A stretch of 64,000 nucleotides of DNA from a virus: the IMG/VR virus record IMGVR_UViG_3300042402_007915, positions 62,001-126,000 of that record, one strand, 5' to 3'. This document shows positions 2 to 63,589 of the stretch, in pieces (position 1 is the stretch's first letter; the number at the start of each line of letters is the position of its first letter). The notes under the pieces were generated by a model that saw only the letters and a list, made by a program, of their open reading frames with translations, had not been told where the DNA came from and did no database searches. The position numbers and the translations under genes are program-made.

Positions 2-3000
2 GATAATGCTCAGCTAGTCGTTGTCGACGCTGCAGCTGGTGTTAAGTCACTAAACCTTAGAATCATGCAGGGTACTAAGGGGAACATGAGACCGGTTATG
101 AACCTGCCAGTAGCGTTCAACCTCGGCAACACCGATGCGTCGATGCCTAACATCACAAGAATGGGGCGTGACTTTGCTACAGGGTACTTTGTTCCGCAAG
201 GCGTTATCGACACAAGAGAAATCTTGCATCAGCTTAAGGAGGGAAAGATCACTCCGGGTAACGTAAAGGGTGTTCAGTCGAATATGAAAAGCTTCGGCAG
301 CTATGCTCTTGGCTTACTAGAAGAACACTTTGAAATGACCCCGAGTGGAAGACTGAAGTCTCGACTTGGCACCACCAACAAAAAAGCACAGTCTGAAATG
401 TTTGCAGTGCTAAATGCGAACATGGAGAACATGCCTAGGTCTCTGTCTGCGACTCTAGAATCGAATGAAGCTCAGGCCGAATACCAGTCTCATGTTAAAA
501 AGCGTGCTGGTGCTAAACACAAGACTGTTTTGCTGACTCATGGTGAAGCTCTTACAGATGCTGACTTCAACTATGTGCATACTTCCTTGATTGGTGGAGA
601 TTCTCCTTTTGACCCTGGTGTTGGTGCTTCTCGTTTGCAGAACATAATTGGTGGTCGCAAGTTTGGTTTGCTTCAGTTGTCGAGTCATTCTGTTCATAGT
701 CGTTACAGATTGCCGTTTAAGGTGTCGCGTAAAGACGCGCCACTTATTGCTCGACAGGAGCAGGTAGAAGGTCGTATTGGTCAGTTCATTGCTCGAGGTG
801 GAAAGGAAAACAATCCGACTATCAGAGGCGGACTGACTCTGGGAGAAGAGACAGCCTCTCCTATCCTTGAGGGAATGACGGGACACAAGAACGTACTTGT
901 TGCAGTTGACGTCACAATGGGAAAAGGAAAGGGCGCTTATTCTGCGGCAGAAAATGAAGGTCAGTACTTTGTTCCAAAGAACAAAGGAGCAGGTCTTGGT
1001 GCCTACATCACAGAGAGCACAATCCCGCTACTCGACCCCGAAGAACACAAGCTTATGTCTTCAGAGCTACTCGAACAATTAAAGGCAGATTTCGAGGCAG
1101 GAAAGCCGCCGCGTTATTTCACGCTTGAAGAGATCGGCAAGCTTAACGGATATCTTGGTCACTCAACGCTTGGTAACAGGACTGTAAGGATTGATCCTCG
1201 TATGCTCGGCGCGTATATGGGTATTGCAGAGACAACAAGTGCTTCTGGAAAGAAGCAAATTCACCTGACATCTCGAGCTGTTAGAAAGGCTAGCGCAGGC
1301 AAAGTCTTCTCCACCTCGACAGTAAAAGGAACTTATAGAGCAACGAGAACTGCTTCTATCCGGCGAGATCTATCTACTTATGGTAGGACTAACTTGGTAG
1401 ACGGAAGACTTGTCAGAGAAGACGTATTCGACCGCATTCTCACTGACGTAAGTGGTGTAAAAAGCGGAGCCGGCCTAAACATCAAGGGTTCGTTTATCAC
1501 GGGCTCTGGAGACGTGCTGAAGAAGTCTGCTGCAAACAGGGCCAACTTCCTATTGACCTCCGCCGCTGTCTCTCTAGGTCAAAAGCACTCCAACCTCCTT
1601 CATGAAATGACTGGTAAAGTAAGCAGCTCGGAAGAACACTCCAGTTACCTGTTTAACAAGATTGCCACAGCTTTCGAAGCGGGACAAATCTCGGAAAGCC
1701 AAGCAGCCAATAGCTTATCTCTACCTTGGTGGGGAGGAGGCAGAGGAACAGGTAAAGGCGCTTACGCTCCGGAAATGAAGTCTATCGCAGATGAAATGCT
1801 TAAGCGTTCGCAAGAGACTACAGAGCAAGGAAAGAAGTGGGCTGCCCTGCTTGAGCTAACAGAAAAAGGACTTCAGGTAGGTGTGGATACTGTCACGCAG
1901 GGTACGGGACACGGAGATTACGGACTGGGTCGCGCATCTATTGAACCGAGAGCAATCGGGTTCATTCGCATGTCTCTCCAGGACATGGGTTTTGACAGCA
2001 AGCAGCAGGTTAACTTCATGCGAGAGATCCTCTCCAGAAAAGTAGGTGGAACCGCAACCCGTAGAACCCTTGAAGGCCTTACGACTGTAATGGCTTCGCA
2101 GATCTCTGCTCCAATTGATGGCGCAAGCAAGATGCCTTCATTCACGGTCAATCAGTTGCTCAAAGAGGCCAATACGCCTACCGAATTCAAAGAGTTAATG
2201 CGTAAAAACGAGAACGGCTTCTTTATCGATTTTAACAACGAGGAAGACCTCAATAGTTCAATCTTCAGAGAGGCAGCCCGCGAGAAGTACGGCAATGATA
2301 GACGCGTTTTCATTGCTGGAAAGCGTACTATTGAGAATATGAAGGGGACCGAGATCAAGCAGTCCAACCAGACAGTCAAGGTTGCCTCTGCGTACGAAGA
2401 GATGTCTTCCGAGTTCTTCTCGCAGATTAAGCAGCTTACGTCTAACTCTGACAATACAACCGTTGGCGATGTAATTAAGACGATGGACAGCTACAAACAG
2501 CAGACCACGCGTCTCTACACGTCGACTTTGCACCAGGTTACTCGTGGCAAGATCAAGGGCAATACTATGGGTATTGTCCACTTTACTGGTACTGAATACG
2601 ATATGGAGACAGCTACTGGAACCCAGAGAATGAAGATGGCTCTGAGTTCAACGCAGAGCGCCTATCAACGTGCCGCCGAAGAAGCCACCAAGAAACAAGT
2701 TGTATTTAGAGATACCCTTCAGTTCCTAAACAATCTTACGGACTACATGAACGTAACAAAAGACAAGGGTGAGCTTGGGGCCTCGCTTCGTAATTTTGCA
2801 TTGGAAAGTGCTCAGCTGCTTCGAGACAGTAAAGCTGGCGTTGCTACTACTGCTCAAGGTGAATGGGGCCTTATTGCTCGTGCCCCTGCTCTTGCTGCTG
2901 GTAACTTCAGGCTCATGGCCTCGTTTAGGTCTCCGCATGAAATGAACGAGAGCGTAGATCCCCTATTCCGAATGATTAAGGATTCAAAGTCAGCACGTAA

Positions 3001-4573
3001 AATACTTCACAAGTTTGAAGAAGACGCAGGCCTTGTGACTGTTACCGAGAAGAAAGTCACCAACAAGAAAGGCGAAGAAGTCGTCAAGCAAATCCGAAAG
3101 GGCACCCCAGTAGAAAGCTTTGATCAGCTACTTGACCTTGAGAAACAGCATCCTAACTTAGTTCGGACACTGTTTGAGGACTTCGCTGCAAACCTTAGAC
3201 AGTGGAATAGAGGTACCGGCGGCGGCTCTGTATTCATCGTCAAGGATATGGCGAACGCAAAGATTGACGGTAAAGTGAGGCCAGTGGATCTTGGTTTCGC
3301 TACTGGATCTCTTGCGGACGCAGACGGTGACTGGGCCTCTTTCATGACGCTGTCTAAAGAGCAGCGGAAAGTGATTGCAGCTAAGATGGCAGATCCAACT
3401 TCAGCTGCAGCGTATATTGCAGCACAGCAAGACCAAACTATTGCGTCAAGCGTATACGCAGAGTACGCAAAGAAAGGGCTTGTTTCGACTGGTGTCCTTA
3501 ACGAAACCTCAGATGAAATCCTGCGGAAGGACTTACTCAAGGAAAAGACTTCGGCTTCGGGCACCGGTAGCGTTGACGTTGCGTTGAACAAACTTCGTAA
3601 TGCAAGCCTTGCTTTCCAAACTGAAGACCCTCGTTTGCTTAGGGAAATGGTTCCGCTTTTTCAGATGCTGGAAGAGCACACTACGATTAAGTCTAAGAAG
3701 CTTGCAGACTTCAAGCCATGGGCAGAGCGTCTTTCCGCGTCTGTTGACGAAGCATTTCGTAGAGACAATATCGCTCCTTTTGCTAACTTCCTAAAGACAG
3801 AGATCTTTCCAGAAGCTGACATGAAGGAGCTTTACGCAGGCTTTGACGTTGAAGCAAGCGGGAGAACTACTCGCATTGAAGGTTTGGATGCAATCTTTGG
3901 TTACCTGCAAAAAGCCATCGTAAATGCCAAAGCGAATAAAATCGACCTTATGGCTACACCGAACATTGCAGCAACAACACTCGCTGGTGATGAAGTTGGT
4001 GTCGCAAGAGAATTGTTTGCCGCCATCACTTCAGGCAAAGCAACGATGCAAAGCGGTATGGCTGCTGAGTTCTTCGGAGACAGGGCTAACCAGAACTTAG
4101 CTAAAGCAGAAGTGCTGAGACAGGCCGCATCTAACCTGATGGACAAGATAGATGTTCGTGGTGCAGGGCTTGCTGTTGGGGCCCTTGCTTTGGGGGCTAT
4201 TACTGTAGGTGCTGTATCAGGCGGCGCCACCTCTTCTCCTCTCATGGTAGAAGGTGAGATGCCTGTTGCAGGGCTTAACAGAGCAGTTTCTGATGGTTTC
4301 CTAGAGGGAAGTGAAGCTCGTGGGATGAGTGGTGGGCCCATGTCAGACGTATATGACATGACAAACACTCCTCAAGGTCATGGTGTGACTTACATGTCAG
4401 GTGGGGCTGGGTTTGACATTAGAGGCGCGACCAGTTCCTTGGCCAACACTGAGACCAGTAGGGCTTTCATCAATTTAGTAACAAAAGGAAATGCTAGAGG
4501 TTCTGTTGTTATCAATGATACAAGAAGGCCTATTACGCCAAACTACTTGGATCGTCTTAACGGAGAATACTAA
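2..4573 (+). CDS. Giant DPBB-type RNA polymerase-like protein, 5' partial
   Basis: The frame is open from the first bases, so the start lies upstream; 1,523 residues are visible. Counting from the ATG at 65, residues 413-422 read K-x7-K-G, the spacing of the two catalytic lysines in the first double-psi beta-barrel of the bacterial RNAP beta subunit. Residues 1085-1089 read DADGD, matching the DxDGD metal-binding motif of the second barrel in beta' and in single-chain phage enzymes (YonO, crAss-like and P23-45 polymerases). The order and roughly 660-residue spacing suit a single-chain enzyme. Near the C-terminus (about residues 1364-1385) is a hydrophobic Gly/Ala-rich segment. The stop overlaps the next start (TAATG), coupling it to the tail hub gene; virion packaging is therefore an inference. 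No T7-type polymerase motif was noticed. Motifs are seen; the family assignment is inferred from short motifs only. Confidence 0.55.
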   Translation, partial: DNAQLVVVDAAAGVKSLNLRIMQGTKGNMRPVMNLPVAFNLGNTDASMPNITRMGRDFATGYFVPQGVIDTREILHQLKEGKITPGNVKGVQSNMKSFGSYALGLLEEHFEMTPSGRLKSRLGTTNKKAQSEMFAVLNANMENMPRSLSATLESNEAQAEYQSHVKKRAGAKHKTVLLTHGEALTDADFNYVHTSLIGGDSPFDPGVGASRLQNIIGGRKFGLLQLSSHSVHSRYRLPFKVSRKDAPLIARQEQVEGRIGQFIARGGKENNPTIRGGLTLGEETASPILEGMTGHKNVLVAVDVTMGKGKGAYSAAENEGQYFVPKNKGAGLGAYITESTIPLLDPEEHKLMSSELLEQLKADFEAGKPPRYFTLEEIGKLNGYLGHSTLGNRTVRIDPRMLGAYMGIAETTSASGKKQIHLTSRAVRKASAGKVFSTSTVKGTYRATRTASIRRDLSTYGRTNLVDGRLVREDVFDRILTDVSGVKSGAGLNIKGSFITGSGDVLKKSAANRANFLLTSAAVSLGQKHSNLLHEMTGKVSSSEEHSSYLFNKIATAFEAGQISESQAANSLSLPWWGGGRGTGKGAYAPEMKSIADEMLKRSQETTEQGKKWAALLELTEKGLQVGVDTVTQGTGHGDYGLGRASIEPRAIGFIRMSLQDMGFDSKQQVNFMREILSRKVGGTATRRTLEGLTTVMASQISAPIDGASKMPSFTVNQLLKEANTPTEFKELMRKNENGFFIDFNNEEDLNSSIFREAAREKYGNDRRVFIAGKRTIENMKGTEIKQSNQTVKVASAYEEMSSEFFSQIKQLTSNSDNTTVGDVIKTMDSYKQQTTRLYTSTLHQVTRGKIKGNTMGIVHFTGTEYDMETATGTQRMKMALSSTQSAYQRAAEEATKKQVVFRDTLQFLNNLTDYMNVTKDKGELGASLRNFALESAQLLRDSKAGVATTAQGEWGLIARAPALAAGNFRLMASFRSPHEMNESVDPLFRMIKDSKSARKILHKFEEDAGLVTVTEKKVTNKKGEEVVKQIRKGTPVESFDQLLDLEKQHPNLVRTLFEDFAANLRQWNRGTGGGSVFIVKDMANAKIDGKVRPVDLGFATGSLADADGDWASFMTLSKEQRKVIAAKMADPTSAAAYIAAQQDQTIASSVYAEYAKKGLVSTGVLNETSDEILRKDLLKEKTSASGTGSVDVALNKLRNASLAFQTEDPRLLREMVPLFQMLEEHTTIKSKKLADFKPWAERLSASVDEAFRRDNIAPFANFLKTEIFPEADMKELYAGFDVEASGRTTRIEGLDAIFGYLQKAIVNAKANKIDLMATPNIAATTLAGDEVGVARELFAAITSGKATMQSGMAAEFFGDRANQNLAKAEVLRQAASNLMDKIDVRGAGLAVGALALGAITVGAVSGGATSSPLMVEGEMPVAGLNRAVSDGFLEGSEARGMSGGPMSDVYDMTNTPQGHGVTYMSGGAGFDIRGATSSLANTETSRAFINLVTKGNARGSVVINDTRRPITPNYLDRLNGEY

Positions 4574-7500
4574 TGGCTCTCAGCCCCAACCAGCTCCCCT
4601 ACGTTGTTGATGTATTCACACCGGTAGGAGAAGAGGACCTTTACAGTCGCAAGGACGTCTTCATCATTAATGACATTGGCTTGATCATCCCGCCAATGGC
4701 TATCTCTATCCAGAAGGAAGATCTTTCCTACACCTGGAAAATGCTGCGTTCTGCTACTACTACCAAGCTCCCCACTGGGCATGGAGCTATTCGTATTGGT
4801 ATCACGATTCCTTTTTTGAACAATCACATCTTGGACTTTCACCGACTTCTTGTTCAGATTCGGCATAACCCTTTTGTTTATATCGAAAACAGGTATCTGA
4901 GAGAGTCAATCATTCCCGAAGCCCCAAGTTCACAGAACATGGCCTTTGGCGTGGACTCTGTTAACATTGCAAGCATGAACGGAACTGCTGACGCTTGGGT
5001 TCTGCAGCTAAACCTAAGTTGGTTTAACTACGCACCCTTTGGACCGAACTTCCTATTCAGGCGAGAGTGGGAAACAGTAGACGTAAATGAAATGAACTTT
5101 GCAAGCTCCTCAGACCCTAACGGGGAAGAGGTTCCGGTAATCGTTCGTAAGAGTATTGGGTGGCATCTCCCTGACGAGTACGGCAGGAGAACCCCGCGGC
5201 CCTGTATTACTTCAATGCGTTATCTTAGGGATGATAGCTTTGGTACAAGCGACTCTGAGACAGGAGAGTCAACTCCAGTAAACGACTTCGACACCACAAT
5301 CCCTAGTCCGATGACTTTGATTGATATGGAGTATGTTCACAAGGGTTTCGAGTGGGACTTGCTGCCTAAGATTTCAATGATGAGTAGGTCAGCGCCTTCT
5401 GTCTTCCCTGCTTCCTCAAGGATCTACACACGGTTCTATAACTACCTGCAGAGAGACGCACTAAAGGAAAACTTTGGCATTGACCTTGAGGGAATGCTTA
5501 GGGACCAAGGCGGCAATGTGGATGGCTACTTTGGTGTTTGGGATCCAACCAGAGCTGACCGTCTCGAAACGTGGTCTCTGCATAATGGTCCAAGAATGCT
5601 AGGGGCCTCAGAAGAGGAGCGCAAGCGCGAGATCGCTATATGGGCTTCTGTAATGTCATCCGTCCGAAGCGCCATGTTTGATATGAACGGACCTCTTGTG
5701 GTTGGCTTCCATTTGTACAAAGAAGTACGAATGCCAGCAGAGTGGGCCAAGGCTCTTGGCGATATGATTCGGGTAAAGAACACAGCGTCCCAGATGGCCT
5801 TGGATGAGAAGATCAACAACCCACTCAGCCCTGAACATCAGATGGATTCAATTACCTACCAAGACCCAAGTACTGGGAACTGGTACGTCATGGAGAAGAA
5901 GTACGAGGGTGGCCCTCTTAGTTGGAAGCCAAAGCTCTTCTCTCAGACTCCAGGGAACCTCCAGGGCCTTTCAACACCCATTGGCGTAGGCGGACGTAAG
6001 GCTACGTTTGCCGAGGTCTCAGCCGTCTCTGGACAGGGCATAGCGACTCGAAACTTTCCTGTTGCAGGTTCAGGCAGGACACTCAAGTCTGGTGAGCTTA
6101 GGGCACACTTGGGCTTGGACTTGTCTCCGCTGAGCAAGAGTGAAAGCACTTACGTCTATCCGGTTAAGGATGGCACCGTACTTAAAACCACTCAATACGA
6201 AGCTCTTAAGGGTACTTGGTATTGGACTTCAGATAGTGGAGTCACTGAGCCCGTTAGTGCTAAGCATTTAAGTCGTCTTAAAGTCGTGTTTAAGACTTAT
6301 AGCGGCTTCTTCTTTGGAGAGGGTGTAAGCCCTGAGTTGTACCTTCTTGGAATTGGTGACAACTTTGTTGGTGCCCAAAGTTACCTCGAGAAAGGAAGGG
6401 TTGGCTCGGTTTACCGCTGCGACTATGTTGGTACTGGGTGGGAAGAGTCTGGTTGGTTTTGGATTAACGGACCTTCTTCTGGTAACACAATTACCATTCA
6501 GCATGGAGATGGAAGCGTCTCTCGGTACATGCACCTTGAATCAATTACCAAGGGGCTGAGGGCCGGAGTGCCTGTTAGTGTTAACACCGTTATCGGTGTG
6601 ATGGGGCAAAGTGGAACCTATGCTTCTAACAAAGTTGCAGACTTCCTAACGACGAATGGCACAAGTGAGATTCGGTCTCTTGGGGCGGCAAACGAAAACT
6701 TAGCGTCTTTTGGGATTCATCTTCACCTTGAGTACGAAGAGCCTTTCAGGAACTCCCTCTGTGTTCCTTCAAGGGTCTTCACTTATGAAGGTGAAGTGGT
6801 TGATCCGGGCAAGACCCCTTCAACTGTTCTAGTTAACCTAAAGCAGATCTACAAGCATTTTGAAGATAGGCAGGCTGTTACTATTCCGGAGGACTACGTA
6901 GCTCCCGAGTACAAAGAATACATCGCGGAAGCGACGACAAAGGCCATCTTGTCTGAAGACTCAACAAAGCCTAAAACGCAGACAGAAGAAGAACAGCTTC
7001 AGTCCGTGGCCCAAGAGCTTGAGGACTTGGTGGAAGACGGATGGGCTAACTACGGCGGGTCTGGTGGTTTGGGTAACGTCTATGAAAAGGCGGTCTTCTT
7101 TAATTTCCGTACCGACCAAGCAAGTGCTATCAAGCTTCCGGAGAACCTAGTTTACACCTTCCAAGACACGTTCCTTACGGGTGTTAGTGCTTCTTACGGA
7201 GCCATTCTCTCAAGGATCCCTCTGCTTGGGCACGAGTACCCAACGCTTCAGCACCTAGGTTCAAACGAACCGTCTTATTCTTTTGAGTTTGCAGCTTTGG
7301 ATACCGAAGAGACTCTGGACGGAGTAAGCTCTGGAGTTAGAAACCTTGAGTCAATGAGGGCAAGGCTTCAGAAGAATGCGCGACTCTTTAGAGAGGTTCC
7401 CAATAGCTGGTCCTGTCTCATGGATACATTTCTCACTCGCCTAATGGGTAGCTACAAGGAGACAGACGTTGTCGTAGATAGTCCAGGAGAAGGACTGCCT

Positions 7501-10500
7501 TCTCGCTTGATGATGAAGAAGAGAATGAACCTCAGCCGTACCGAGGTCGGAACTATCCAAGGAAACCCCGGCGCCTCTTTCTATACGGTAGAGGCAGAAG
7601 AGACAAACGTCTTTGAGACAGAAATCCTAAAGAACACTAACAGTCAGTTCACGACAATTGAGAATGCAAGGCAAACGGTACTTCATAAGCTCCTTAATCT
7701 TGAAGTAAAAGATGTGGAGAATGAAGCTCTTACACTGGCTATCGCTAAAGCATTAGCACCACAGGCCCTTGATCCTGCAAACCCAATGTATGGGATTATC
7801 GATTTAAGCAACCAATCTCTCCTGAACTCTGACCTGTATCTTCCAGGGCCAGAAGACAGTAGCTCCAAGCCAGACAACGGTAGTCTTGAGAATCTGGTTA
7901 GCTTTTTGATGGCAGAGCGAGCCAGCGGAGAAGTGTATAGCGTTCTAGAAGAAACAGAGCTAGGCGGCTTGCTGGGAGAGTTCCCCAAACAACCATTCGC
8001 AAAGGCTGAAGAGCAGTATAGTGCTGACAAAAACAAGAGCGGAATCGTAGTAGATTTGACGAAGCTTACAGGCGTGACTCTTAACGATAGCTTCTTAGAC
8101 ATCAAGGAACTGCTTGCTAACAACGGGGGTCCCGAGGGGGCAGCCGCTTTCCTGCAGATGATGGACCTCCATTTCCTCCTCAAGGCTCTCATTGAAAAGA
8201 GTTGCATTGTACTTGCAGAAGACAAGTCTAGAGCAAGCGGTACCTATCCAGACGGCGGTTTCACTGTTGAGGAGGCCAGAAGTGAGCTCTACCAAATGCC
8301 TATCACTCCAAGCATGTGGAGCCTGTTTACTGAATACGAAAGGGTCTGTGCACAAAGGTTCTCTCTTGATGTAAACGGCTTTGATGTCCTGGAGGGAAAC
8401 TCAGAGGGCGCAATCGCAACGCTAGAAAGCAATGCTAACTGGAATACCTTTGAGCCGGTAAAGGACGGAAGCGAAGCCTACGTCAACAAGCTTACTATCG
8501 AAGCTAGAAAGGCTGGTCTAAGTGTGACCAATCTTCACTTGGCCTTTGACACTGTAGAGATCCTAACCTCTTCTGCCGTAGAAGGAGCTGCTGATACTGC
8601 ACTCGGGTTTGCAAGCTACATTCCAGGCGCAAGCCTCGCTATCGACCGCAATGGAGAGTCTGAAGGTCTTCTCGGAACTCGTATGTTTGACGCAAGTGTA
8701 AAGAACGCACTTAGTGAAGCTCATGAGTTTTTGGTTGAGGGATACATTAACAGCATCTTCAAGTCTGCTATCGGTTTGACGGAGACCGCAAAGGCTTACG
8801 GCCAAGAGTTTATCTTTAGGCCTCTCCAAGCACTTGTTACTTCTTCGAGCACTGGATATTCGCCACTCGACAACCCTATCGGAGCATTCACCAAGCACGT
8901 CGAATCTTCAGGTTATTGGGGCTATGGTTTTCACCACTTCCTTGGTTTAGGGCCAAACACTGGCGGTCTCACTTTCTGGGCGGCAAACCCAGAGGACTAT
9001 GTCATCGTTTACGACAAGAGCTACGAAGCTGGTAGGGCGCAAGTAACTAAGCAAATCTACGAAGGTGTTAACGGTAGCATGGCCACAAATGCTTTTGCCG
9101 CAATTGCTTCTCTTGCCAATGGTTCTCTACAGCCTTTTGATAACTCTAACATCACACAGTGGAACTCTCCTTTGGAGTGGAAGGTTACACGGCCAGAAGA
9201 GAAGGACAAGGTTGACCAGCTCAAGAGAGAGTTCTCCTCTCTCGCGGACAACATCCTAAACAACTACAACCTGCTCAAGTTATTTGGTTTGGAGAAGTAC
9301 ACCAATGTCCTAAACAACGAACAGTACCTCGAAGGAACAGAGGCGTATCCAGACCTTAAGCTGCCAGCCCATCCTTTCTACGGAACGGTGAAAGATACCG
9401 GGCCCGACTTCTATTACTGGAACGTATACGAAGACGGACAGATGCTTGACGCACAGGTTGTAAAGAGTGTTGAAGCTTCGATGGATGAGGTCGTTAAGAA
9501 TGCGTATCAGAGCATGCGACGGTTCCAGTCGGGTGAAAAATACAACCCGGTTAAAGACCCAAGTACCAACTACTCCAAAGACGTAGCACAGGCTGCTCAA
9601 GGGGTCATTCTGTTTAACGCAGAAGCTACTGACGGGAACAGCAACAACCCTGCAAATAAGGGTCGTACTTCTATCAGCTTCTACGAATACGAAAAGACTG
9701 AACAGATTGCAGAGTTTGAGAATGCCCTCACTGGAGCAAACGGAAAAGAAATCCTGAAGAGGCATCCAAAGATTCCAAACCTGTTTGGTACTAGTGGCAT
9801 CTCAATCGGTAGCGAGTTCATGCCGGATAATTTTGCTCCCATTAAGCAGCAAGACCTGGAGAACCTAGAGAAGACTCTTGAGGAAACTCAGAGCATGTTT
9901 GGATCTCGAAGTGGATACCTGAAGGAGAAAGTGGGCAACCCTCTTACTCGAGGTCTTGAGGGAACCAACAGAGCCTCCACTCCAGACATCACCGGGCATA
10001 GCTGGACTATGGAATCGCTTCAGGGTCTTGCGAAGGAAAGCGCAAAAGACATCTTCTCCCAGAAGATGACCATGGCTAGAGCCTACCCAACCTTCAAGCT
10101 GTTCTTTGTAGAGGAAGATGAGATTGAAAACGCTCTGATTTCTCTAGACGACTTCCACTCGTACAACGGTGTGAAGGACTTCACCTTTGTAGAATCAAAG
10201 GATTCACCGGCCAGTGTAGCTGTCATTTCTCTCCAGAACGTCTCAGGAGTGCTTGACGGAACAAAGAGAAACGTCGTTACTGACTTGGACTACTTTGACC
10301 GGAAGATCACTAAGTCCCTTGAGAAGAACCAGTCGCACCTCCAAGGAGATGTGCTTACGGAAGGTACTGACTACGAACAGCCGTTTGGCTCTGTCGTTCT
10401 ACGTCCAGGCCTAAACGTACAGCTTAGAGTTGGCTATTCAAATGACCCCAAGAACCTCTCGGTCCTCCTCTCAGGTCGTATTGTCGATATCTCTTGGAAC

Positions 10501-13479
10501 AAGAATAACGACCTTGCTGAAATTGTAGTCCAGTCCTTTGGAACAGAGTTGATTCAGCAAAAGAAGGAAGACACCGAAGTCCATTACACGACTCACCACC
10601 TACTCTCGCATCTTATGCTGTCTCCAGAGTTAGTTCACTTTGGTCGGTGGGAGATTGGAAAGCTCTTCCAGACTGGCGAAAGCAAAGACGCGCGTATGGA
10701 CTTTACGAACTACGCCCGTGAGGGTTTGGCTGGTAAGTTTGCGTTCACTACTTGGACTAATGAGTTTCTTGCCAACAATACCTACATCCTTGTCGCTCTC
10801 GGTATGGCTTCTGCTGTAGCGTCATTCTTCCCTGCCGGTAAGCTCCTTGGAAAAGCAGGGGCGGCTGGAGCCGCTGCTGCAAGCGGAGCCGCAAACGCCT
10901 CTAAGGTTGGTAGGATGACAAGCTGGGTCAAAGAATTGCTCTTGAAGGCAGCAGACACCCTTCCAGCAAGCAAGAGTGCCAGCCTTGCTAGACTGTTCAT
11001 CACACCAAGCAAAGAGTTCAGACTAACACAGCTTATCGAAAAAGAGGCGGCAAAGGTTGCAGCAACTTCAGGACGGGGACTCGCACCAAGCATTCAAAAT
11101 CTAATCGCCCAAGGGAATATAAAGTTGGTCGAAAAGCTTTTGATGAAAGCGGTGAAAGAAGACACCGTTTACCTCAGAAGCTTGATTAAAGCGCTCAACA
11201 ACAAAGAGGCAAACGATGCTGTCGCCAGGGCCTATGCTAACTACTTTAGCGCAAGAAGCGCAGCAGTAACTGCTGGCTCTATCGATAACGCGATTGCAGC
11301 AGGAGTTCAGTTCAGGTCTGAGCTTCAGTACATCTACGGAAGCATGAAGGTTCTAGATGCACCTGCGCTCTCTATCAAAGAGGTTGGCAAGGTAATCTGG
11401 TCGAACAAAATGGGGGCGCTAAAGGCGGGAGGATTCTTTGCGGCTCGGACTGTAGGAGGAGGTCTAACGGCAGGTAGTGTTCTTGCTGCGGGTGCCGTGG
11501 GAGGTGACTTCCTTGCTATGACAGACACGGCCAAACGAATCCGAGACCAGTACCTCTACTATCTATCAAGGTTCCTAGCCGCAACTGAAGTGTCTCTGAT
11601 GGTTTCGCCTCAGGACGACAACATCTTTGCACCTCATCCGAAAGACTACATGGACCTTAAGATCGGAGGCATCCTTGAAGGCTTAAGCCGTACTGTCACC
11701 TATGCGAGCGCCTCTATCCTTCTCCAGGACAACGTAATCGCTAATGACCTTGCCAACCTTGTAACCCTTAAGGGTTTGTTTGATAAGCGAGTCGACCCAC
11801 GCGCTTGTCAGTACTCACTAAACAAATCCACTATCTGGGAAGTGTTCCAAGAGATGAGCTACAGACACCCTGGTTGGGTTTATGGCGCTCGTCCTTATGG
11901 TACCGCCTTCAGGTATACCATGTTCTTCGGAGTGCCTTCACAGCGGTACTGGAGCCAGCCAGGGAGTGATAGCTTTATCACTCGCATGAACCAGCTAACT
12001 CGTGTCCTAGAGAAAGAGGGACCTGCTAAAGAGTCCAGGGTAACAGAGCAAGAGTACAGAGAGCTGTACGGAGACAACCTGCACGGAATGACGATTGCTG
12101 ATTGGTATGCCATGAACCCAGGTATCAACCTTGAAACTGAGTTCAAGGGCGTTGCCATGAAAGAGTATCTGAAGGGAATGGAGGCTAGATTCGTGCCCTT
12201 CAGAAGACATCACCACCTGTCTGCTCATACCGACATCGTCTGGAATGGTTTGCTTTCGTCGGAGAACGCTGCATCAAATGCAATCAACGTTCATTACTAC
12301 GAGACTGGAAGCAACCCAGAAATCGCTGGTAACCAAGTAGTAAAGGCGCACAGCTTCATCCCGCCACATATGACAAGAGTTCACGATATGCCAATCTATC
12401 GTAACTGCAAGTCGGACAGGATGGCTCGTAGATACGCGCTAGGTGGCTTGATGGAGCAAATGAAGAAAACGTACAGAGGTGAAATCCTTGTCGTAGGTAA
12501 CGCTCGTATCCGCCCTTGGGATATTGCTATCCTTTGTGATAGCTACAACGACATGTATGGTCCGATTGAGGTTGACCAAGTGGTGCATACATTCAGCTAC
12601 GAGACTGGATTCGTAACCGAAATTAAACCAGCAGCAGTCGTCATCGCAAATGAGATTTCTTCTTGGCCGCTTATCGAAGCCGCAAAGATTGCTTCTCTTG
12701 CAATTGAGGACATCACTCTTAAAGCAAACTCAACCCGTAGCTCCAAAGCTTTAGCTAACGCTAACGGACTGAGCGCTCTCACCAAGGGCACCTATGGTGT
12801 AGATGCAATGCTTTCACTTGCTCGTGACTTCTCGCAGGAAGAGATAGTTACTCTTAAGAGCCGCTGGCTTTCTCTCTCTAGGAACTCTAATAGCCTCTAC
12901 AACGCTCTCGAGGAAGACCCAGAACTTGCTTCTGCCTTGAGTGAGTTGGATCCTGGAATCGCTGCGGGCTATGAGACTGCACTGGCTAGCGCTTCAGTCG
13001 CAGTGGCTCTGACTGGTACTGCTCTCGGGCTTGGTACTTTGGCTTTGGCACAAAAGAGCGGAATAACAAGCCTTGGTTCAAAGAACTTAATCACGGGTGT
13101 TGCCGGTTTGGGTACTTTGGTTGCGTCCGGTGCGCTTTGGAGCGCTTCAAACATGACGCCTCCGTCCCTAATCAGCCTCCTGGGTGGTTCAATCCTCTTC
13201 CTGCAAACCATGAAGGAGGAGAGCATGATGCTAATTCCGCTGGTAAAGAGTGGCCGCCCTATTGTCTCCGGTTTGTCTCTCAAGGACCCATCTATCATGT
13301 GGAAGAACTTCAAGGGTAATATCACCAGAGAATTTGAAGATACTTTTGACGGCCTGCAAGACCTGCAAACCCTCTTTAACAAGTACCAAACTGGTGCCTG
13401 GGAGAAGATTGTAGAAGCCTCAGAAGAGGCCTCATACGACAGACTGAAGAGCAACAGGATTGATACCAGTACGCCCTAG
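4573..13479 (+). CDS. Giant tail hub-like protein with M23 peptidase domain
   Basis: 2,968 residues. A zinc metallopeptidase M23 (LytM) domain has all expected ligands: HLGLD at 512-516, a central MHLES histidine near 655, and HLH at 716-718. This family cuts peptidoglycan cross-links, so the protein probably opens the cell wall during infection. First and last ligands are about 200 residues apart, against roughly 80-100 usually, so the domain carries an insertion. Around residues 1940-1980 a beta-rich stretch (LRPGLNVQLRVGY, then SGRIVDISW) resembles baseplate hub/late-control proteins. Hydrophobic Ala/Gly-rich segments occur near 2073-2105 and 2797-2880 and could insert in the membrane. The ATG overlaps the preceding stop. 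Probably the central hub or tail-tip protein; a tape measure function is possible but no long coiled coil is evident. Confidence 0.7.
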   Translation: MALSPNQLPYVVDVFTPVGEEDLYSRKDVFIINDIGLIIPPMAISIQKEDLSYTWKMLRSATTTKLPTGHGAIRIGITIPFLNNHILDFHRLLVQIRHNPFVYIENRYLRESIIPEAPSSQNMAFGVDSVNIASMNGTADAWVLQLNLSWFNYAPFGPNFLFRREWETVDVNEMNFASSSDPNGEEVPVIVRKSIGWHLPDEYGRRTPRPCITSMRYLRDDSFGTSDSETGESTPVNDFDTTIPSPMTLIDMEYVHKGFEWDLLPKISMMSRSAPSVFPASSRIYTRFYNYLQRDALKENFGIDLEGMLRDQGGNVDGYFGVWDPTRADRLETWSLHNGPRMLGASEEERKREIAIWASVMSSVRSAMFDMNGPLVVGFHLYKEVRMPAEWAKALGDMIRVKNTASQMALDEKINNPLSPEHQMDSITYQDPSTGNWYVMEKKYEGGPLSWKPKLFSQTPGNLQGLSTPIGVGGRKATFAEVSAVSGQGIATRNFPVAGSGRTLKSGELRAHLGLDLSPLSKSESTYVYPVKDGTVLKTTQYEALKGTWYWTSDSGVTEPVSAKHLSRLKVVFKTYSGFFFGEGVSPELYLLGIGDNFVGAQSYLEKGRVGSVYRCDYVGTGWEESGWFWINGPSSGNTITIQHGDGSVSRYMHLESITKGLRAGVPVSVNTVIGVMGQSGTYASNKVADFLTTNGTSEIRSLGAANENLASFGIHLHLEYEEPFRNSLCVPSRVFTYEGEVVDPGKTPSTVLVNLKQIYKHFEDRQAVTIPEDYVAPEYKEYIAEATTKAILSEDSTKPKTQTEEEQLQSVAQELEDLVEDGWANYGGSGGLGNVYEKAVFFNFRTDQASAIKLPENLVYTFQDTFLTGVSASYGAILSRIPLLGHEYPTLQHLGSNEPSYSFEFAALDTEETLDGVSSGVRNLESMRARLQKNARLFREVPNSWSCLMDTFLTRLMGSYKETDVVVDSPGEGLPSRLMMKKRMNLSRTEVGTIQGNPGASFYTVEAEETNVFETEILKNTNSQFTTIENARQTVLHKLLNLEVKDVENEALTLAIAKALAPQALDPANPMYGIIDLSNQSLLNSDLYLPGPEDSSSKPDNGSLENLVSFLMAERASGEVYSVLEETELGGLLGEFPKQPFAKAEEQYSADKNKSGIVVDLTKLTGVTLNDSFLDIKELLANNGGPEGAAAFLQMMDLHFLLKALIEKSCIVLAEDKSRASGTYPDGGFTVEEARSELYQMPITPSMWSLFTEYERVCAQRFSLDVNGFDVLEGNSEGAIATLESNANWNTFEPVKDGSEAYVNKLTIEARKAGLSVTNLHLAFDTVEILTSSAVEGAADTALGFASYIPGASLAIDRNGESEGLLGTRMFDASVKNALSEAHEFLVEGYINSIFKSAIGLTETAKAYGQEFIFRPLQALVTSSSTGYSPLDNPIGAFTKHVESSGYWGYGFHHFLGLGPNTGGLTFWAANPEDYVIVYDKSYEAGRAQVTKQIYEGVNGSMATNAFAAIASLANGSLQPFDNSNITQWNSPLEWKVTRPEEKDKVDQLKREFSSLADNILNNYNLLKLFGLEKYTNVLNNEQYLEGTEAYPDLKLPAHPFYGTVKDTGPDFYYWNVYEDGQMLDAQVVKSVEASMDEVVKNAYQSMRRFQSGEKYNPVKDPSTNYSKDVAQAAQGVILFNAEATDGNSNNPANKGRTSISFYEYEKTEQIAEFENALTGANGKEILKRHPKIPNLFGTSGISIGSEFMPDNFAPIKQQDLENLEKTLEETQSMFGSRSGYLKEKVGNPLTRGLEGTNRASTPDITGHSWTMESLQGLAKESAKDIFSQKMTMARAYPTFKLFFVEEDEIENALISLDDFHSYNGVKDFTFVESKDSPASVAVISLQNVSGVLDGTKRNVVTDLDYFDRKITKSLEKNQSHLQGDVLTEGTDYEQPFGSVVLRPGLNVQLRVGYSNDPKNLSVLLSGRIVDISWNKNNDLAEIVVQSFGTELIQQKKEDTEVHYTTHHLLSHLMLSPELVHFGRWEIGKLFQTGESKDARMDFTNYAREGLAGKFAFTTWTNEFLANNTYILVALGMASAVASFFPAGKLLGKAGAAGAAAASGAANASKVGRMTSWVKELLLKAADTLPASKSASLARLFITPSKEFRLTQLIEKEAAKVAATSGRGLAPSIQNLIAQGNIKLVEKLLMKAVKEDTVYLRSLIKALNNKEANDAVARAYANYFSARSAAVTAGSIDNAIAAGVQFRSELQYIYGSMKVLDAPALSIKEVGKVIWSNKMGALKAGGFFAARTVGGGLTAGSVLAAGAVGGDFLAMTDTAKRIRDQYLYYLSRFLAATEVSLMVSPQDDNIFAPHPKDYMDLKIGGILEGLSRTVTYASASILLQDNVIANDLANLVTLKGLFDKRVDPRACQYSLNKSTIWEVFQEMSYRHPGWVYGARPYGTAFRYTMFFGVPSQRYWSQPGSDSFITRMNQLTRVLEKEGPAKESRVTEQEYRELYGDNLHGMTIADWYAMNPGINLETEFKGVAMKEYLKGMEARFVPFRRHHHLSAHTDIVWNGLLSSENAASNAINVHYYETGSNPEIAGNQVVKAHSFIPPHMTRVHDMPIYRNCKSDRMARRYALGGLMEQMKKTYRGEILVVGNARIRPWDIAILCDSYNDMYGPIEVDQVVHTFSYETGFVTEIKPAAVVIANEISSWPLIEAAKIASLAIEDITLKANSTRSSKALANANGLSALTKGTYGVDAMLSLARDFSQEEIVTLKSRWLSLSRNSNSLYNALEEDPELASALSELDPGIAAGYETALASASVAVALTGTALGLGTLALAQKSGITSLGSKNLITGVAGLGTLVASGALWSASNMTPPSLISLLGGSILFLQTMKEESMMLIPLVKSGRPIVSGLSLKDPSIMWKNFKGNITREFEDTFDGLQDLQTLFNKYQTGAWEKIVEASEEASYDRLKSNRIDTSTP

Positions 13480-34004: not shown

Positions 34005-34034
34005 AAAAGGGGAGGCACTAAGCCTCCCCCTTTT
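34005..34034. terminator. Bidirectional terminator between convergent operons
   Basis: GGGGAGGC (34009-34016) pairs with GCCTCCCC (34022-34029) around a five-base loop. AAAA precedes and CTTTT follows, so both strands read stem then U-run. It separates the plus-strand late operon ending at 33988 from the minus-strand array ending at 34033; the first bases of the last minus gene lie inside its tail. Confidence 0.9.
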
Positions 34035-58234: not shown

Positions 58235-59521
58235 TTAAAATGCTTTCTTGGGTGGGTTTGAAGATCCAAGCGCGTATACGTTGGAGAAGTTGCGAAGAGT
58301 ATTTCCCTGTGCGTCTTGCCATAGAACAGCATAGCCATTCTGTGAACCGCCGCTATAGGAAAGATGAGGAGTATGTGCGTAATGCATAGGTCCAGCAAAG
58401 CAACCCTGCTCCATGATCAAGAGCCTGTCGTAAACGAACTTAGAAATCTTGTGGGTGTGTCCGATAACAACAGTATCAATTTCCTCTTCGGGATACCTTG
58501 AGCTAAAATAGTTGGCGGTCTTGTGTGCCAAGCTTGCAATGCCGCCCGAACCCCTGGTGTGAGGATGGGCAAAGATTGCTTTACCTACCTTACAGTACCA
58601 AGAATCTCGAAGGTCGAAATGCACGTTGTCGAAGTCATGCTTCTTAACAAGCTTCCCAGCAGCATTGATCTCTTCACCATTTGCAATACGCCCAAGAGCA
58701 GAAGGATTGAAATAGCTTACCGTATTCTTGTTGATACCGTTCTCAGAGAGTACACGCGCAACGCGGCTTTCGTGATTACCCTCGGTAAGAATAACCTTCT
58801 CAAAGTTCTCGCTGCACCACTTCACAAGAGCAAAAGCGCAACGGTATTCATCTACAATAGTAATCTCACGACTCTTCGAATAAGAAGAAGCAGAGTATCC
58901 CTCAAGGATATCTCCATTCAAGACGAGAACACTAGCGTCTGTATGGAGGGAAAGAGTCTCCTCAAGGAGATCTACCCTTGCAAACGGGAAGTGAATATCT
59001 GAAACGGAGACAATCTTGCGAACAGGTTCTCCTGTCTCATCCCCAATGGTTACCATTGGGTTGGGGTACTTGTTCTGAATGGTCTCGATCAGATCGAATG
59101 CGTTGGTTTCTGACAATGGCGACTCCTTCTTCGAAGGCTCAGTAGACGTAGCAACTACCGGGGTGGGAATAGGAGTCTTCTTCGTAGGAATGAAGACTCT
59201 GCTCGGGCCCTTAAACTGGGCAATGCGATTACCAGCCCTGTTAACGGGGAACGTATAGTTGGCAGTGTTTCGAATAGCCTCTACAAAGTAGGGGTCATTT
59301 CTATGACGGCTATACCAACGAGAGATTGCCTTCTCAGAACGCTGGCTTCCAATAGCACGCAGAGCAGCTACGGCCTTGTCCATCGGCTGGTTTTCATCTC
59401 CAGTGCCAGCAAGACCAAAGCCATACCAGCCCCTTTCCCAGACCTTATACTTCTCTGCGATGAGCATAACAGCAAAGGCCTCGTCATCTGACCAAGGATC
59501 GCCGAATTGATGTTTGTTCAT
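58235..59521 (-). CDS. Metallophosphoesterase (Mre11/SbcD superfamily)
   Basis: 428 residues. Metal motifs occur in order: D175-x-H177 (SVSDIHFP), G203-D204 (NGDILEG), G248-N249-H250-E251 (EGNHESR), IFAHPHTRG and GHTH. The superfamily includes nucleases and phosphatases. Residues 1-110 form a separate helical domain (WSDDEAFAVML and KAISRWYSRH), which resembles a DNA-binding helix bundle. Start overlaps the polymerase stop (ATGA), which points to DNA end processing or proofreading; the latter is speculation. Confidence 0.8.
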   Translation of the reverse strand: MNKHQFGDPWSDDEAFAVMLIAEKYKVWERGWYGFGLAGTGDENQPMDKAVAALRAIGSQRSEKAISRWYSRHRNDPYFVEAIRNTANYTFPVNRAGNRIAQFKGPSRVFIPTKKTPIPTPVVATSTEPSKKESPLSETNAFDLIETIQNKYPNPMVTIGDETGEPVRKIVSVSDIHFPFARVDLLEETLSLHTDASVLVLNGDILEGYSASSYSKSREITIVDEYRCAFALVKWCSENFEKVILTEGNHESRVARVLSENGINKNTVSYFNPSALGRIANGEEINAAGKLVKKHDFDNVHFDLRDSWYCKVGKAIFAHPHTRGSGGIASLAHKTANYFSSRYPEEEIDTVVIGHTHKISKFVYDRLLIMEQGCFAGPMHYAHTPHLSYSGGSQNGYAVLWQDAQGNTLRNFSNVYALGSSNPPKKAF

Positions 59522-61974
59522 TGTTTACCTCCATAGATTGTTATTTCTCTAGCAAGGATTTCAGCAGTTTGGTTCTCTTCGTCTTCGTCAGAGTCTGACG
59601 ACTTGATGAGGCCCGAGACCTTTAAGATCATCCCAGATTCTAGTTTTACGTTTGGGTACTTAGCTTCTAGCTTCTTTACGCCTTCTGCGAAAATCAGTAC
59701 TGTGGCAAAAGACGTGCCGTCTTCGATTTCAATAAGACCCATGCGACTACCCTTCTTTGTAGTCTTAATCTTTGCTGATACAATTGCGCCCGCAAAAATA
59801 CCTCTATCGTCAGGTCTTGCATTGATCAAGAATTCTGCTTCTGGGTAGATAGTGTGGGCCGGATGTTTGCCTAAGTAGCAGCCAATAGCTTGTCCCTGTT
59901 CAAGCTGTTCCTTGAGAGAAAGCTGAGCGTTATAAGGCCTAACTGGGAAGGTAATGAAATGCGGCATCTCTTTATGTTTAAGCTCTGGCTTGCGTCTGAG
60001 GTCCTTATGTTCTTCGAGGAAGGTTTCTTCTTCGAGAGTAAGAGGCGCGGCTTTCTTTAGCGACTTTTGATGCCGAAGCTTGTCGCGTCTTTCAATGAGT
60101 GGCAATACGATAGCCATCTCTTTGTCTCTCTCAAGGATCTCAGCTTCTCTTTCATGATAGGCAATCAGATCAGGCTTGTAAGCAAAGATCAGCTCCATCA
60201 TCTCTAACAAGTGTTCTCTGTAATGACCGAAGCAATCCATAGCCCCACTCTGTACAAGAGCAGTGAAAACCTTAGTGTTCATTTTAGTCTGGTTTGTTCT
60301 GTTCATGAAATCTTGAAGGTCTTCAAATGGCTTAGATCCTCGGATCTTTAAGATGTGGCTGACTGCAGAGCCGCCAACATTCTTGATTCCATTCAAACCA
60401 AACCTAATACATGTTGGATTGATAATCTCAAAATGGTTTCCTGACTCGTTGATGTCTGGGCAAAGCACGTCAATATCAAACTGACGCGCTTCATCAATGT
60501 ACTCCATCACTTTAACACGCCACATCTTTGGCGACATCATTCTAGATCCAACAGACATCAGAGCACAGAAGTACTCAACGGTGTGGTTCGCCTTCAGGTA
60601 GGCACACACATAAGACAAGTACGAATAGGCAACGGAATGGGAGGCATTGAACAAGTAGTCCGCACAACCAATGATAATGTCCCACAAACGGGAGACTTGC
60701 GCTTCAGAAAGGCCGTACTTCGCACAACCAGCAAAGAACAGAGGCTGTAGCTTCTCTAGGTACTTCTTGTCCTTCTTACCTACAGCCCTTCTTGCAGTAT
60801 CGGCGTCCTGGAGAGAAAGGCCTGCAACTTCAGTGAAGAGCTTAATGAGCTGCTCTTGGTAAACAAGAACGCGCCTAGTATTACTCCACATATCTGCGAT
60901 AACCGCAGGAATTTCAGGATCGGATTCTCTATTCAAGTAACGATCTAAGAAGCCTGCCGACATTGGACCTGGACGTACAAGCGCCGAAATGTCCGAAAGC
61001 TCAGCAACGCTTGTTGGTTTAGCTTTCATTACGGCATCTCCAATAAGAGATGAGGTCTCGAACTGAAAGACGCCGGTAAGCAGCCCACGAGCAAAGAGAG
61101 CGTAAGTCCTCTTGTCGTTGTCAGGGATGTTGTAGATGTCGATAGAGAGGCCCTTACGCTTTTGTATAAGTTCAACAGCTACCTGGAGTACGTCCAAGGT
61201 CTTAATGATCAAGAAGTCGTACTTGATTAAACCAAGCGCCTCAACTTCCTTCATATCAAACTGGGTAACCCGAAGCTTATCTGCAGTCGTATAAGTCGGC
61301 GCCACTAAATGTACAGGGAAATCTGAAATGATCATACCAGCAGGATGAACACCATTATTCGAAATCATACCATCTAGGTTGTAAGTGAAATCGAACCACT
61401 CAGAATACTTGGCGTCTTCTAGTAACTCAGGATGTGCAGGATATCCCTTCTCCGGGTTCCCCTTGACAACTTCCTTAAGGGTTGGCTCTTTACCAAACAA
61501 AGGGTCAGGAATCTTTGCAAGGATTTCATTTCGAACAGCAAGATGAGAGTCCTTGGCTTTGTCTCCAAGTTCTTTGTCTGGCATCCAGATAGAGAAATAT
61601 CTTTGAGTTAAAGAGCGAGGCCCAAACTTACCGTGAGTACCAATGTTGGCGACGTTATCGATGCCCCAAAGGTTGACAATGTGGTCAATGAGCTTTGTCC
61701 GACCACTCTCGGAAAAGTCCATATCGATGTCTGGAGCTGCTCCACCGATAGTGTCACTTCGTCCTTGCTGAAAATCAAAATCATCAGTTAGCCCCAAAGT
61801 AAATAAGAGTAAACTGTTGCGCTCGTTAACCTTAAAGAATAGACTCTTCTCTAAACAAAAGAGTAATCTCTCGACGTCTGCTTCTGTGGTAAATTCGAGT
61901 TCGTAATCTAGAAAGTCTTTATCCACAAGAGCGACTCGTTCCTCTAGCAGCGAAGAACGTATCTTCTCTTTCAT
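59518..61974 (-). CDS. dnaE: DNA polymerase III alpha subunit (DnaE-like), no PHP domain
   Basis: 818 residues from ATG 61974, after AAGGAGGT; frame continues to 62064 but through the opposing gene's start. Catalytic acids: PDIDMDF at 81-87 and the third in LIKYDFL. HPAGMIIS, VRPGPMSAGF and YQEQLIKLF are C-family polymerase features, and the C-terminus has an OB-fold (IVSAKIKTTKKGSRMGLIEI). Bacterial DnaE has about 280 PHP residues and more before this point; here only 80 precede the active site. No 3'-5' exonuclease is fused. Main replicative polymerase of the phage, working with the primase-helicase. Confidence 0.93.
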   Translation of the reverse strand: MKEKIRSSLLEERVALVDKDFLDYELEFTTEADVERLLFCLEKSLFFKVNERNSLLLFTLGLTDDFDFQQGRSDTIGGAAPDIDMDFSESGRTKLIDHIVNLWGIDNVANIGTHGKFGPRSLTQRYFSIWMPDKELGDKAKDSHLAVRNEILAKIPDPLFGKEPTLKEVVKGNPEKGYPAHPELLEDAKYSEWFDFTYNLDGMISNNGVHPAGMIISDFPVHLVAPTYTTADKLRVTQFDMKEVEALGLIKYDFLIIKTLDVLQVAVELIQKRKGLSIDIYNIPDNDKRTYALFARGLLTGVFQFETSSLIGDAVMKAKPTSVAELSDISALVRPGPMSAGFLDRYLNRESDPEIPAVIADMWSNTRRVLVYQEQLIKLFTEVAGLSLQDADTARRAVGKKDKKYLEKLQPLFFAGCAKYGLSEAQVSRLWDIIIGCADYLFNASHSVAYSYLSYVCAYLKANHTVEYFCALMSVGSRMMSPKMWRVKVMEYIDEARQFDIDVLCPDINESGNHFEIINPTCIRFGLNGIKNVGGSAVSHILKIRGSKPFEDLQDFMNRTNQTKMNTKVFTALVQSGAMDCFGHYREHLLEMMELIFAYKPDLIAYHEREAEILERDKEMAIVLPLIERRDKLRHQKSLKKAAPLTLEEETFLEEHKDLRRKPELKHKEMPHFITFPVRPYNAQLSLKEQLEQGQAIGCYLGKHPAHTIYPEAEFLINARPDDRGIFAGAIVSAKIKTTKKGSRMGLIEIEDGTSFATVLIFAEGVKKLEAKYPNVKLESGMILKVSGLIKSSDSDEDEENQTAEILAREITIYGGKQ
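61912..61938. repeat. Duplicated junction repeat, copy A (inside dnaE 5' end)
   Basis: Twenty-four of 27 bases match 63615-63641: identical AAAGTCTTTA, six partly different bases, then identical AGAGCGACTCG ending. On the minus strand it encodes the ERVALVDKDFL element of DnaE. Both copies are followed downstream by CCTTGGGGG(G)AAAATG of a plus-strand gene. Confidence 0.75.
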
Positions 61975-61993
61975 GCAACCTCCTTGGGGGAAA

Positions 61994-63589
61994 ATGTCTG
62001 CCCATACCGAAATTTCATCTTCAGAGCTGCCAGTTTTGCCTGACGATGCTCGAGTCCTTCGCAAGCTGCGTCGTATTCAAGACGGTGGCGAGATTAGGTA
62101 TGCAGATATTTTTGCTGGGTGTGGTGGTATTTCTCTTGGTTTCTTGACAGCTGGGTTCAAGCCGGTCGGATCTATTGAGTGTGACCCCTGGGCAGCCAAG
62201 TCACACGGAACAAACTTTGGACCCCATTCTGCAGGGGCTGATCGTCCGGCACTTCATATCCCACGCGATGCTGTTACTGAAACCGCTGAAAGCTTTTTTG
62301 CTGACCTCGGGATTAGTGGCGAGACAGAAGATCAAATAGATGTATTGGTTGGCGGCCCACCTTGCCAAGCATTCGCTCGTGTCGGCAGAGCCAAGCTTCG
62401 AGAGCAAGCTCGCCTTCGAGATGAAGTCACAGCGGACCAAGCCTTTCTTGTAGATGGACGTGTAAACCTTTGGGAGCGTTATGTTGCATTCATTAGGGCT
62501 ACAAAGCCAGTAGCTCTTCTTATGGAAAATGTCCCAGATATCCTGAATCATGGTGGGGCTAATGTTGCAGAGCTTGTAGCCAAAAGCCTTGAGAAGGAAG
62601 GGTATGACGTTGTATACACTCTGCTAAACGCTGCTTGGTATGGCGTACCGCAGATAAGAGAACGGATGATACTTGTCGGCTTTCACAAGGCAACAGGTAT
62701 CAGGCCTCGATTCCCAACACCTACGCACTACCTTGATTTGCCGTCTGGTTATGTCTCTCTAAGGAATACTGCACGCCGAGTAATCAAGAGCGAAGGCTCA
62801 GATTATCACCGCTGGGTAGATGGGCCTTCAAGCTTAGCAATGCCTGCAACTTCCGCTGCCGATGCTTTAGCTGACCTTCCGGTCTTCTGTGCGCAAGATC
62901 TTTTACACTCTGGCAAGTTGCGTCGTGGCCCTAAAGATTTATCCGAACAGATTGATTACACAACAAACGAACCAGCTACTTCCTACTCTAGGTTAATGAG
63001 GGAATGGTTCGGGTTTGCAACGAAAGCGGCGACTAGCCATGTCTTCCGCTACTTACCACGAGACTACAAAATCTTCGCTGAAATGAGAGCCGGGTGGGAG
63101 TACCCAGCGATTCATGCTCATGTAGAGCACAAAATTACAGAGTGGCTAGCTGAACGTAAACGCTGTGGTCTCTCTACCGACCTCTCAGATCCTGAAGTGA
63201 ACAGCTTTGTTACGAGTTGGCGTCTATCCTCTGATCCCCACAAGTTCCCAAACAAGTGGTGGAAGATGGAAGCCAACAAACCCGTACGAACTTTGATGGC
63301 TCACCTTGGGAAAGACTCCTACTCACACATTCACTTTGACTCTGAGCAAGCTCGGACTATCACAGTCCGTGAGGCGGCTCGGCTTCAGTCTTTCCCTGAT
63401 GGATTTGTATTTGAAGGCTCAATGAATCCTGCGTTTAAGCAAATTGGTAACGCTGTGCCGCCGTTATTTGCTTACGCTATTGCACGAGCGATGCTAGAAT
63501 GCTTAGCAGCCCCTACTGTTCCCGACATGCGGGTTGAGTTGCTTGGGTTATCCGCTTCGCAGATTACGACAACTCGGGGAACTCCATGA
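61994..63589 (+). CDS. DNA (cytosine-5) methyltransferase
   Basis: 531 residues from ATG 61994 (MSAHTEISSSELP), after TTGGGGG; an in-frame ATG at 61973 would overlap the dnaE start. Motif I is DIFAGCGGISLGF (SAM binding), motif IV GGPPCQAFA with the catalytic Cys, motif VI MENVP, motif VIII QIRERMILVGF and motif X QIGNAVPPLFAYAIA; all are present, so it should be active. The variable region between VIII and IX chooses the DNA target. No matching restriction gene is nearby, so it is a solitary enzyme, most likely for protection from host restriction. Short flanking repeats suggest a later insertion. Confidence 0.95.
   Translation: MSAHTEISSSELPVLPDDARVLRKLRRIQDGGEIRYADIFAGCGGISLGFLTAGFKPVGSIECDPWAAKSHGTNFGPHSAGADRPALHIPRDAVTETAESFFADLGISGETEDQIDVLVGGPPCQAFARVGRAKLREQARLRDEVTADQAFLVDGRVNLWERYVAFIRATKPVALLMENVPDILNHGGANVAELVAKSLEKEGYDVVYTLLNAAWYGVPQIRERMILVGFHKATGIRPRFPTPTHYLDLPSGYVSLRNTARRVIKSEGSDYHRWVDGPSSLAMPATSAADALADLPVFCAQDLLHSGKLRRGPKDLSEQIDYTTNEPATSYSRLMREWFGFATKAATSHVFRYLPRDYKIFAEMRAGWEYPAIHAHVEHKITEWLAERKRCGLSTDLSDPEVNSFVTSWRLSSDPHKFPNKWWKMEANKPVRTLMAHLGKDSYSHIHFDSEQARTITVREAARLQSFPDGFVFEGSMNPAFKQIGNAVPPLFAYAIARAMLECLAAPTVPDMRVELLGLSASQITTTRGTP

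Follow-up and report, generated by a model that had tools for sequence, protein, structure and literature searches.

The stretch of DNA analysed here, called the window, comprises 64,000 nucleotides of a 147,225-bp virus record (G000), and it begins within a large open reading frame (window positions 2 to 4573, plus strand) that has no start inside the window and is open to its left edge. In the complete record the gene encodes 1767 amino acids, from an MGFDPF start at G000:C1:61270 to a stop at 66573, and its first 731 bp (G000:C1:61270-62000) lie to the left of the window. The codon for residue i of the full protein starts at window position 3i-733, and residue numbers below are those of the full protein. 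The start of the gene overlaps the end of an upstream gene for a 1366-aa protein, and its stop overlaps the start of the baseplate hub gene by one base, at 4573. A preliminary description, made from the sequence alone, had placed K-x7-K-G at 1301-1330 and DADGD at 3317-3331 in one frame and in the right order, and had the gene extending past the left edge of the window and lying directly upstream of the tail hub and coupled to it. All of these statements held, the motif positions exactly.

The upstream protein (G000:C1:57180-61280, equivalent to L002:15180-19280) is homologous to gp035 of Acinetobacter phage ME3 and to others, with relatives of 677-1949 aa. Its C-terminus reads I-x-V-N-D-D-R and resembles the tail of the protein under study, and it could possibly be the true tape measure of these phages. 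At another site in the window, a DnaE-like DNA polymerase ORF (59518-62064, minus strand) and a DNA methyltransferase ORF (61973-63589, plus strand) overlap head-to-head by about 90 bp.

Table 1. Features of the putative polymerase gene and its downstream neighbour (window coordinates)
Feature	Residues	Position	Strand	Remarks
Two-barrel RNA polymerase gene (predicted)		2..4573	+	Window holds C-terminal 1523 aa of a 1767-aa single chain
N-terminal core half, including the lysine-bearing barrel	492-888	743..1933	+	Matches C-terminal part of Rpb2/beta
Lysine pair, K-x7-K-G	K678, K686-G687	1301..1330	+	Compare E. coli beta K1065-x7-K1073-G
RGKIKG	1092-1097	2543..2560	+	Start of catalytic barrel; equivalent to beta' GKRVDYSGR; RGKxxGS conserved in relatives
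Catalytic double-psi barrel, with an insertion between R-x-P and DxDGD	1094-1394	2549..3451	+	Separate AlphaFold model
R-A-P	1204-1206	2879..2887	+	R-x-P ahead of DxDGD; in 22/23 relatives
DADGD, metal-binding aspartates	D1350-D1354	3317..3331	+	Invariant in 24/24; in register with beta' 460-464
Long predicted helix, bridge-helix candidate, KEKTSASGTGSVDVALNKLRNA	1414-1448	3509..3613	+	Helix in both models; conserved
IKSK, with fourth invariant residue K1476	1473-1476	3686..3697	+	Alignment
Hydrophobic segment near C-terminus	1631-1649	4160..4216	+	Hydropathy scan
Conserved C-terminal tail, proposed docking tail, INDTRRPITPNY	1748-1759	4511..4546	+	Kept in relatives
Baseplate hub with Peptidase_M23 domain		4573..13479	+	Translationally coupled neighbour of the polymerase gene

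Active-site motifs and their chance expectation

Sequence and structure prediction together support a single chain with a beta-like half that carries the lysine pair, followed by a beta'-like half that carries R-x-P, DxDGD and the bridge-helix candidate, and they also support an order of the halves that is that of the cellular and single-chain enzymes. The beta' subunit of E. coli has R-A-P ahead of DFDGD, and an R-x-P ahead of DxDxD is found in each of YonO, P23-45 gp64, P23-45 gp96 and crAss001 gp50. By themselves the motifs prove little and are only suggestive, because about 0.7% of shuffled copies of the protein contain both in order (in 20,000 shuffles, DxDGD arose in 2.4%, K-x7-K-G in 56%, and the two in order in 0.66%). 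What lifts the motif pair above chance is its conservation across 24 diverged proteins.

Relatives and conservation

The protein had no match in Pfam, PHROGs, NCBIfam or the PDB sequences, and tblastn against 50,697 phages gave nothing useful. Relatives were gathered through the downstream hub, since the hub is better conserved than the putative polymerase. The hub search led to Acinetobacter phage ME3, Bacillus phage KLEB27-3 and Moorella phage MTATph1, and scans of viral contigs with a hub alignment added about 40 further loci; a hub scan of a further genome-contig collection gave no match. The lineage is called 0305phi8-36-like because the annotation of ME3 names 0305phi8-36 homologues, citing them for the sheath, portal, terminase, hub and other proteins. 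The order tail protein, polymerase, hub is conserved across the lineage, and the sequence evidence supports one fixed position for the polymerase gene, between the 1366-aa tail protein and the baseplate hub, throughout it.

A DxDxD motif occurs in the gene directly upstream of the hub at 37 of the 39 distinct loci with a readable neighbour. This tally includes four loci (L029, L031, L032 and L047) in which the motif context is weak, and these are not relied on. The two exceptions are L034 and MTATph1. The protein upstream of the hub in L034 (L034:7368-9614) has 749 aa and keeps the hydrophobic segment and an NVTDNSR tail, with the polymerase absent. In MTATph1 (L008:6925-14281), the gene at the polymerase position is split by an IS21-like transposase pair; its downstream piece keeps the C-terminal tail of the family (HMM E=7e-7), and its upstream piece carries an RNase_T exonuclease domain (E=5e-5).

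Conservation was assessed in an alignment of 24 proteins that are 14-43% identical to the window protein, with a mean column identity of 20%. Only four columns are invariant, namely D1350, D1352, D1354 and K1476, and K678, K686, R1204 and P1206 are nearly so. Both lysines of the pair are present in all 23 proteins that cover them, and from one relative to another their spacing can differ by one or two residues. The order of motifs is also kept: K...K-[GAT], RGKxxGS, R-x-P, DxDxD, a KE..VGxxDVxL helix and I[KS]xK. The insertion between R-x-P and DxDGD is longer in the window clade than in other clades.

Two further clades occupy the same gene position. The L024/L025/L027-type clade has the same signature and is homologous over about 900 residues (hhalign E=7e-28). 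The Bacillus KLEB27-3-type clade, with proteins of 2434-2523 aa, carries RYP...DYDGD and K...NKG. Its RYP...DYDGD stretch matches the PHROG "RNA polymerase beta subunit" (E=1.8e-6), and it also resembles Pfam RNA_pol_Rpb1_2, although that match stays under the threshold. When profiles of the window clade and the Bacillus-type clade were compared, only the DxDGD neighbourhood was aligned, with low probability. The kinship of these two clades is argued from shared gene position, motif order and a C-terminal tail shared via the third clade, since that tail links the KLEB27-3 type to the L024/L025/L027 clade (E=3e-7). Alignments by hhalign to single reference enzymes were not significant; when the catalytic domain alone was compared, the top alignment to five of the six references lay on DxDGD, again without significance.

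Predicted fold

Residues 440-1600 were modelled by AlphaFold with the family alignment, giving a mixed alpha/beta globular fold (pLDDT 79.1, pTM 0.76) in which K678 and K686 each begin or sit in a strand of a predicted hairpin. When this model was compared with known structures by VIA-align, all 50 of the listed top rows were two-barrel RNA polymerases. Model residues 36-449 aligned with Rpb2/beta (model 53-449 with Rpb2 720-1061, Z up to 9.9) and model residues 506-1161 with Rpb1/beta' (Z up to 8.9), and QDE-1 spanned both halves (375 residues, 4.0 A, Z 9.0). When the catalytic domain (residues 1079-1449) was modelled separately, its pLDDT was 79, with a core above 90, and here all 50 rows were largest subunits of RNA polymerases. 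Residues 1094-1394 aligned in register with E. coli beta' 346-500 or yeast Rpb1 344-521; at the ends of this alignment, RGKIKG fell on beta' GKRVDYSGR (start 345/346) and DADGD on DFDGD. Several of the catalytic-domain alignments extended to about beta' 800-803, in the bridge helix, at a high rmsd of about 7 A.

Structural Z scores of 7.5-9.9 are in a range where chance resemblance can occur, and for this reason the case for the fold rests on the fact that all top rows are RNA polymerases, on the order of the halves and on the register. Foldseek E-values of 0.29 and 0.034 were not significant. Neither P23-45 gp96 nor crAss gp66 was among the structural rows listed, but this does not rule them out. 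In a viral structure library the model also matched two proteins of ME3, 802 and 798 aa long (E about 3e-6 to 7e-6). From their lengths we infer that they are the C-terminal half of gp036, which is the ME3 protein at the equivalent position, and gp152.

The preliminary description had proposed a two-barrel (double-psi beta-barrel) RNA polymerase with both signatures, to be refuted by a predicted structure without two double-psi barrels. The proposal is supported by the conservation and the predicted fold, in which the top matches are only two-barrel RNA polymerases and the halves fall on the expected subunits. It is thus very likely that the gene encodes a two-barrel RNA polymerase by fold and active site, with the reservations that this is a model prediction, that the geometry of the active site is unmeasured and that RNA synthesis is inferred. 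The same description had suggested a virion-borne, injected enzyme. This part has no direct evidence, but it can reasonably be inferred from where the gene lies, from its relatives and from the precedent of P23-45.

Comparison with known two-barrel polymerases

The closest known parallel is found in the Thermus phage P23-45, where the tape-measure protein itself carries the virion polymerase and gp64 is a non-virion polymerase (PMC10770324). Like P23-45 gp96, the window protein is a single-chain two-barrel polymerase of a tail module with R-x-P followed by DxDGD, but outside the surroundings of DxDGD no similarity between the two sequences could be detected, and the polymerase is mid-chain in the window protein rather than N-terminal. 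P23-45 is a siphophage with a 5,002-aa fusion, whereas the window lineage is contractile-tailed with a protein of 1,400-2,500 aa. The crAss-like RNA polymerases (phi14:2 gp66 and crAss001 gp50) are likewise giant single-chain two-barrel enzymes, and virion RNA polymerases fused to large proteins have been cited for these phages (PMC10770324); however, there is no significant similarity to the window protein and the gene neighbourhood is different.

Both barrels are also found in a single chain in the YonO/QDE-1 family, which includes 0305phi8-36 orf99, but neither YonO nor orf99 is encoded in a tail module. Membership in this family (Pfam RdRP, PF05183) was considered and rejected, as no match was found for the protein family or the whole record; in this search B. 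subtilis matched, but below the cut-off. The phiKZ type resembles the present case as a virion polymerase of large contractile-tailed phages (virion location being inferred here), but its beta and beta' equivalents are split over several polypeptides (PMC7824862), unlike the one chain that holds both barrels here. A split multisubunit enzyme of that type was ruled out, with both halves in one open frame. The position of the window gene is that of 0305phi8-36 orf146, the "tape measure" directly upstream of the hub orf147 (PMC2147016), and the sequenced Bacillus relative KLEB27-3 carries the polymerase signature at the position equivalent to orf146.

Alternative explanations

One rival is a plain tape measure whose motifs arose by coincidence, with DxDGD being, for instance, a calcium-binding loop. 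In its favour, 0305phi8-36 orf146 was assigned as tape measure, mainly from a correlation with tail length (PMC2147016), and the shuffles show that single motifs come cheaply by chance. Against it stand the conservation of the motifs in 24 proteins, the long protein one gene further upstream as an alternative candidate for the ruler, and the mixed alpha/beta prediction for residues 440-1600, which matches only RNA polymerases and is not an almost wholly alpha-helical rod. This rival is very improbable, being already contradicted by the predicted fold. A related reading, in which one polypeptide is both tape measure and polymerase as in P23-45 gp96, modifies the best explanation and does not oppose it, and it is less likely than not. 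It would account for the tape-measure gene position, the hydrophobic segment and the long flanks (about 440 aa N-terminal and 170-270 aa C-terminal in the window protein, with a greater total length in the Bacillus-type proteins). In addition, L034 has lost the polymerase but retains the C-terminal tail, a situation also known from some relatives of P23-45 (PMC10770324). On the other side, the window clade leaves little sequence for a ruler, and the variable-length protein just upstream is itself a possible ruler.

The protein might instead be an inactive relative of polymerases recruited as a structural protein of the tail, as its placement in the tail module and the lack of activity data would allow. 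This seems most unlikely, because three metal-binding aspartates that never vary at 20% mean column identity are the opposite of what a loss of catalysis predicts. There is equally little to recommend a two-barrel enzyme with another product or template, such as a PolD-like DNA polymerase or an RNA-templated polymerase. The two-barrel fold does occur in archaeal PolD (PMC10770324) and in QDE-1, and QDE-1 is among the structural matches, but the genome has a DnaE-like DNA polymerase and a primase-helicase of its own, PF05183 matches nowhere in the record, and the tested tail-linked relative P23-45 gp96 is a DNA-dependent RNA polymerase (PMC10770324).

A probable virion-borne polymerase and its possible role

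The preferred reading remains a single-chain two-barrel RNA polymerase of the tail module. That it is virion-borne and injected is likely, as inferred from gene position, the annotation of relatives and the precedent of P23-45; the sole relative-based support for a virion location is that KLEB27-3 gp034 is annotated as "structural protein". The whole statement, taken loosely, is also likely. According to the proposed mechanism, the polymerase would be assembled into the virion, either within the tail or on it, where the conserved C-terminal tail probably serves as the docking element that holds it. It would then enter the cell with the leading DNA and transcribe the first phage genes before, or without, the host RNA polymerase. 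A shared early-promoter motif was sought in the intergenic DNA, and only A/G-rich words resembling intrinsic-terminator hairpins were found. Such A/G-rich stretches flank GC hairpins at G000:C1:23000-30600 and at window positions 34005-34034, and they occur mostly in the left part of the record.

Neither the two-barrel superfamily nor the concept of a virion polymerase linked to the tail is new, and two-barrel virion polymerases had been described from phiKZ-like phages, from crAss-like phages and, in a single case of fusion to a tape measure, from Thermus siphophages. Within the open literature that was searched, the novelty is a lineage-wide, highly diverged family at the hub of contractile-tailed phages. 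No report of this tail-module family was found there, with the caveat that the supplementary two-barrel survey of PMC10770324 might list members. The family of the window clade was invisible to the sequence libraries searched, and it gives specific grounds for revisiting a tape-measure annotation that dates from 2007. A bolder reading, which could as easily prove wrong as right, is that the protein long classified as tape measure, or else the one next to it on the baseplate hub, functions as an RNA polymerase and exits the tail tip before the DNA. If so, genome entry and first transcription would be coupled from the moment of injection across an ancient and widespread contractile-tailed lineage. 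A general question can now be tested, namely whether polymerases lodged in the tail link the entry of DNA to early transcription.

A second candidate polymerase

The record also contains a 1407-aa ORF (G000:C1:18831-23054, minus strand; L064:831-5054, minus strand) with R-F-P and DDDGD (RFPAILPQSLMTLKV...LQGDDDGDIAAW) and with no match in the family libraries or to phages. It is a possible non-virion two-barrel polymerase, on motif grounds only, and here the comparison with P23-45 is incomplete, since that phage encodes a second, non-virion polymerase and the window genome only a candidate. In the proposed scheme this second two-barrel-like enzyme would serve later genes, as gp64 does in P23-45. 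Whether one virion and one non-virion two-barrel enzyme form a common plan is a second testable question.

An arrangement of another kind is seen at gp152-gp154 of ME3 (L068:16115-20850, minus strand), where gp152 ends in ...GLHVRNPS, gp154 begins near ...SDVDGD, and an endonuclease gene, gp153, lies between them. Judging from these sequences, ME3 has a probable second polymerase whose catalytic barrel seems to be interrupted between R-x-P and DVDGD.
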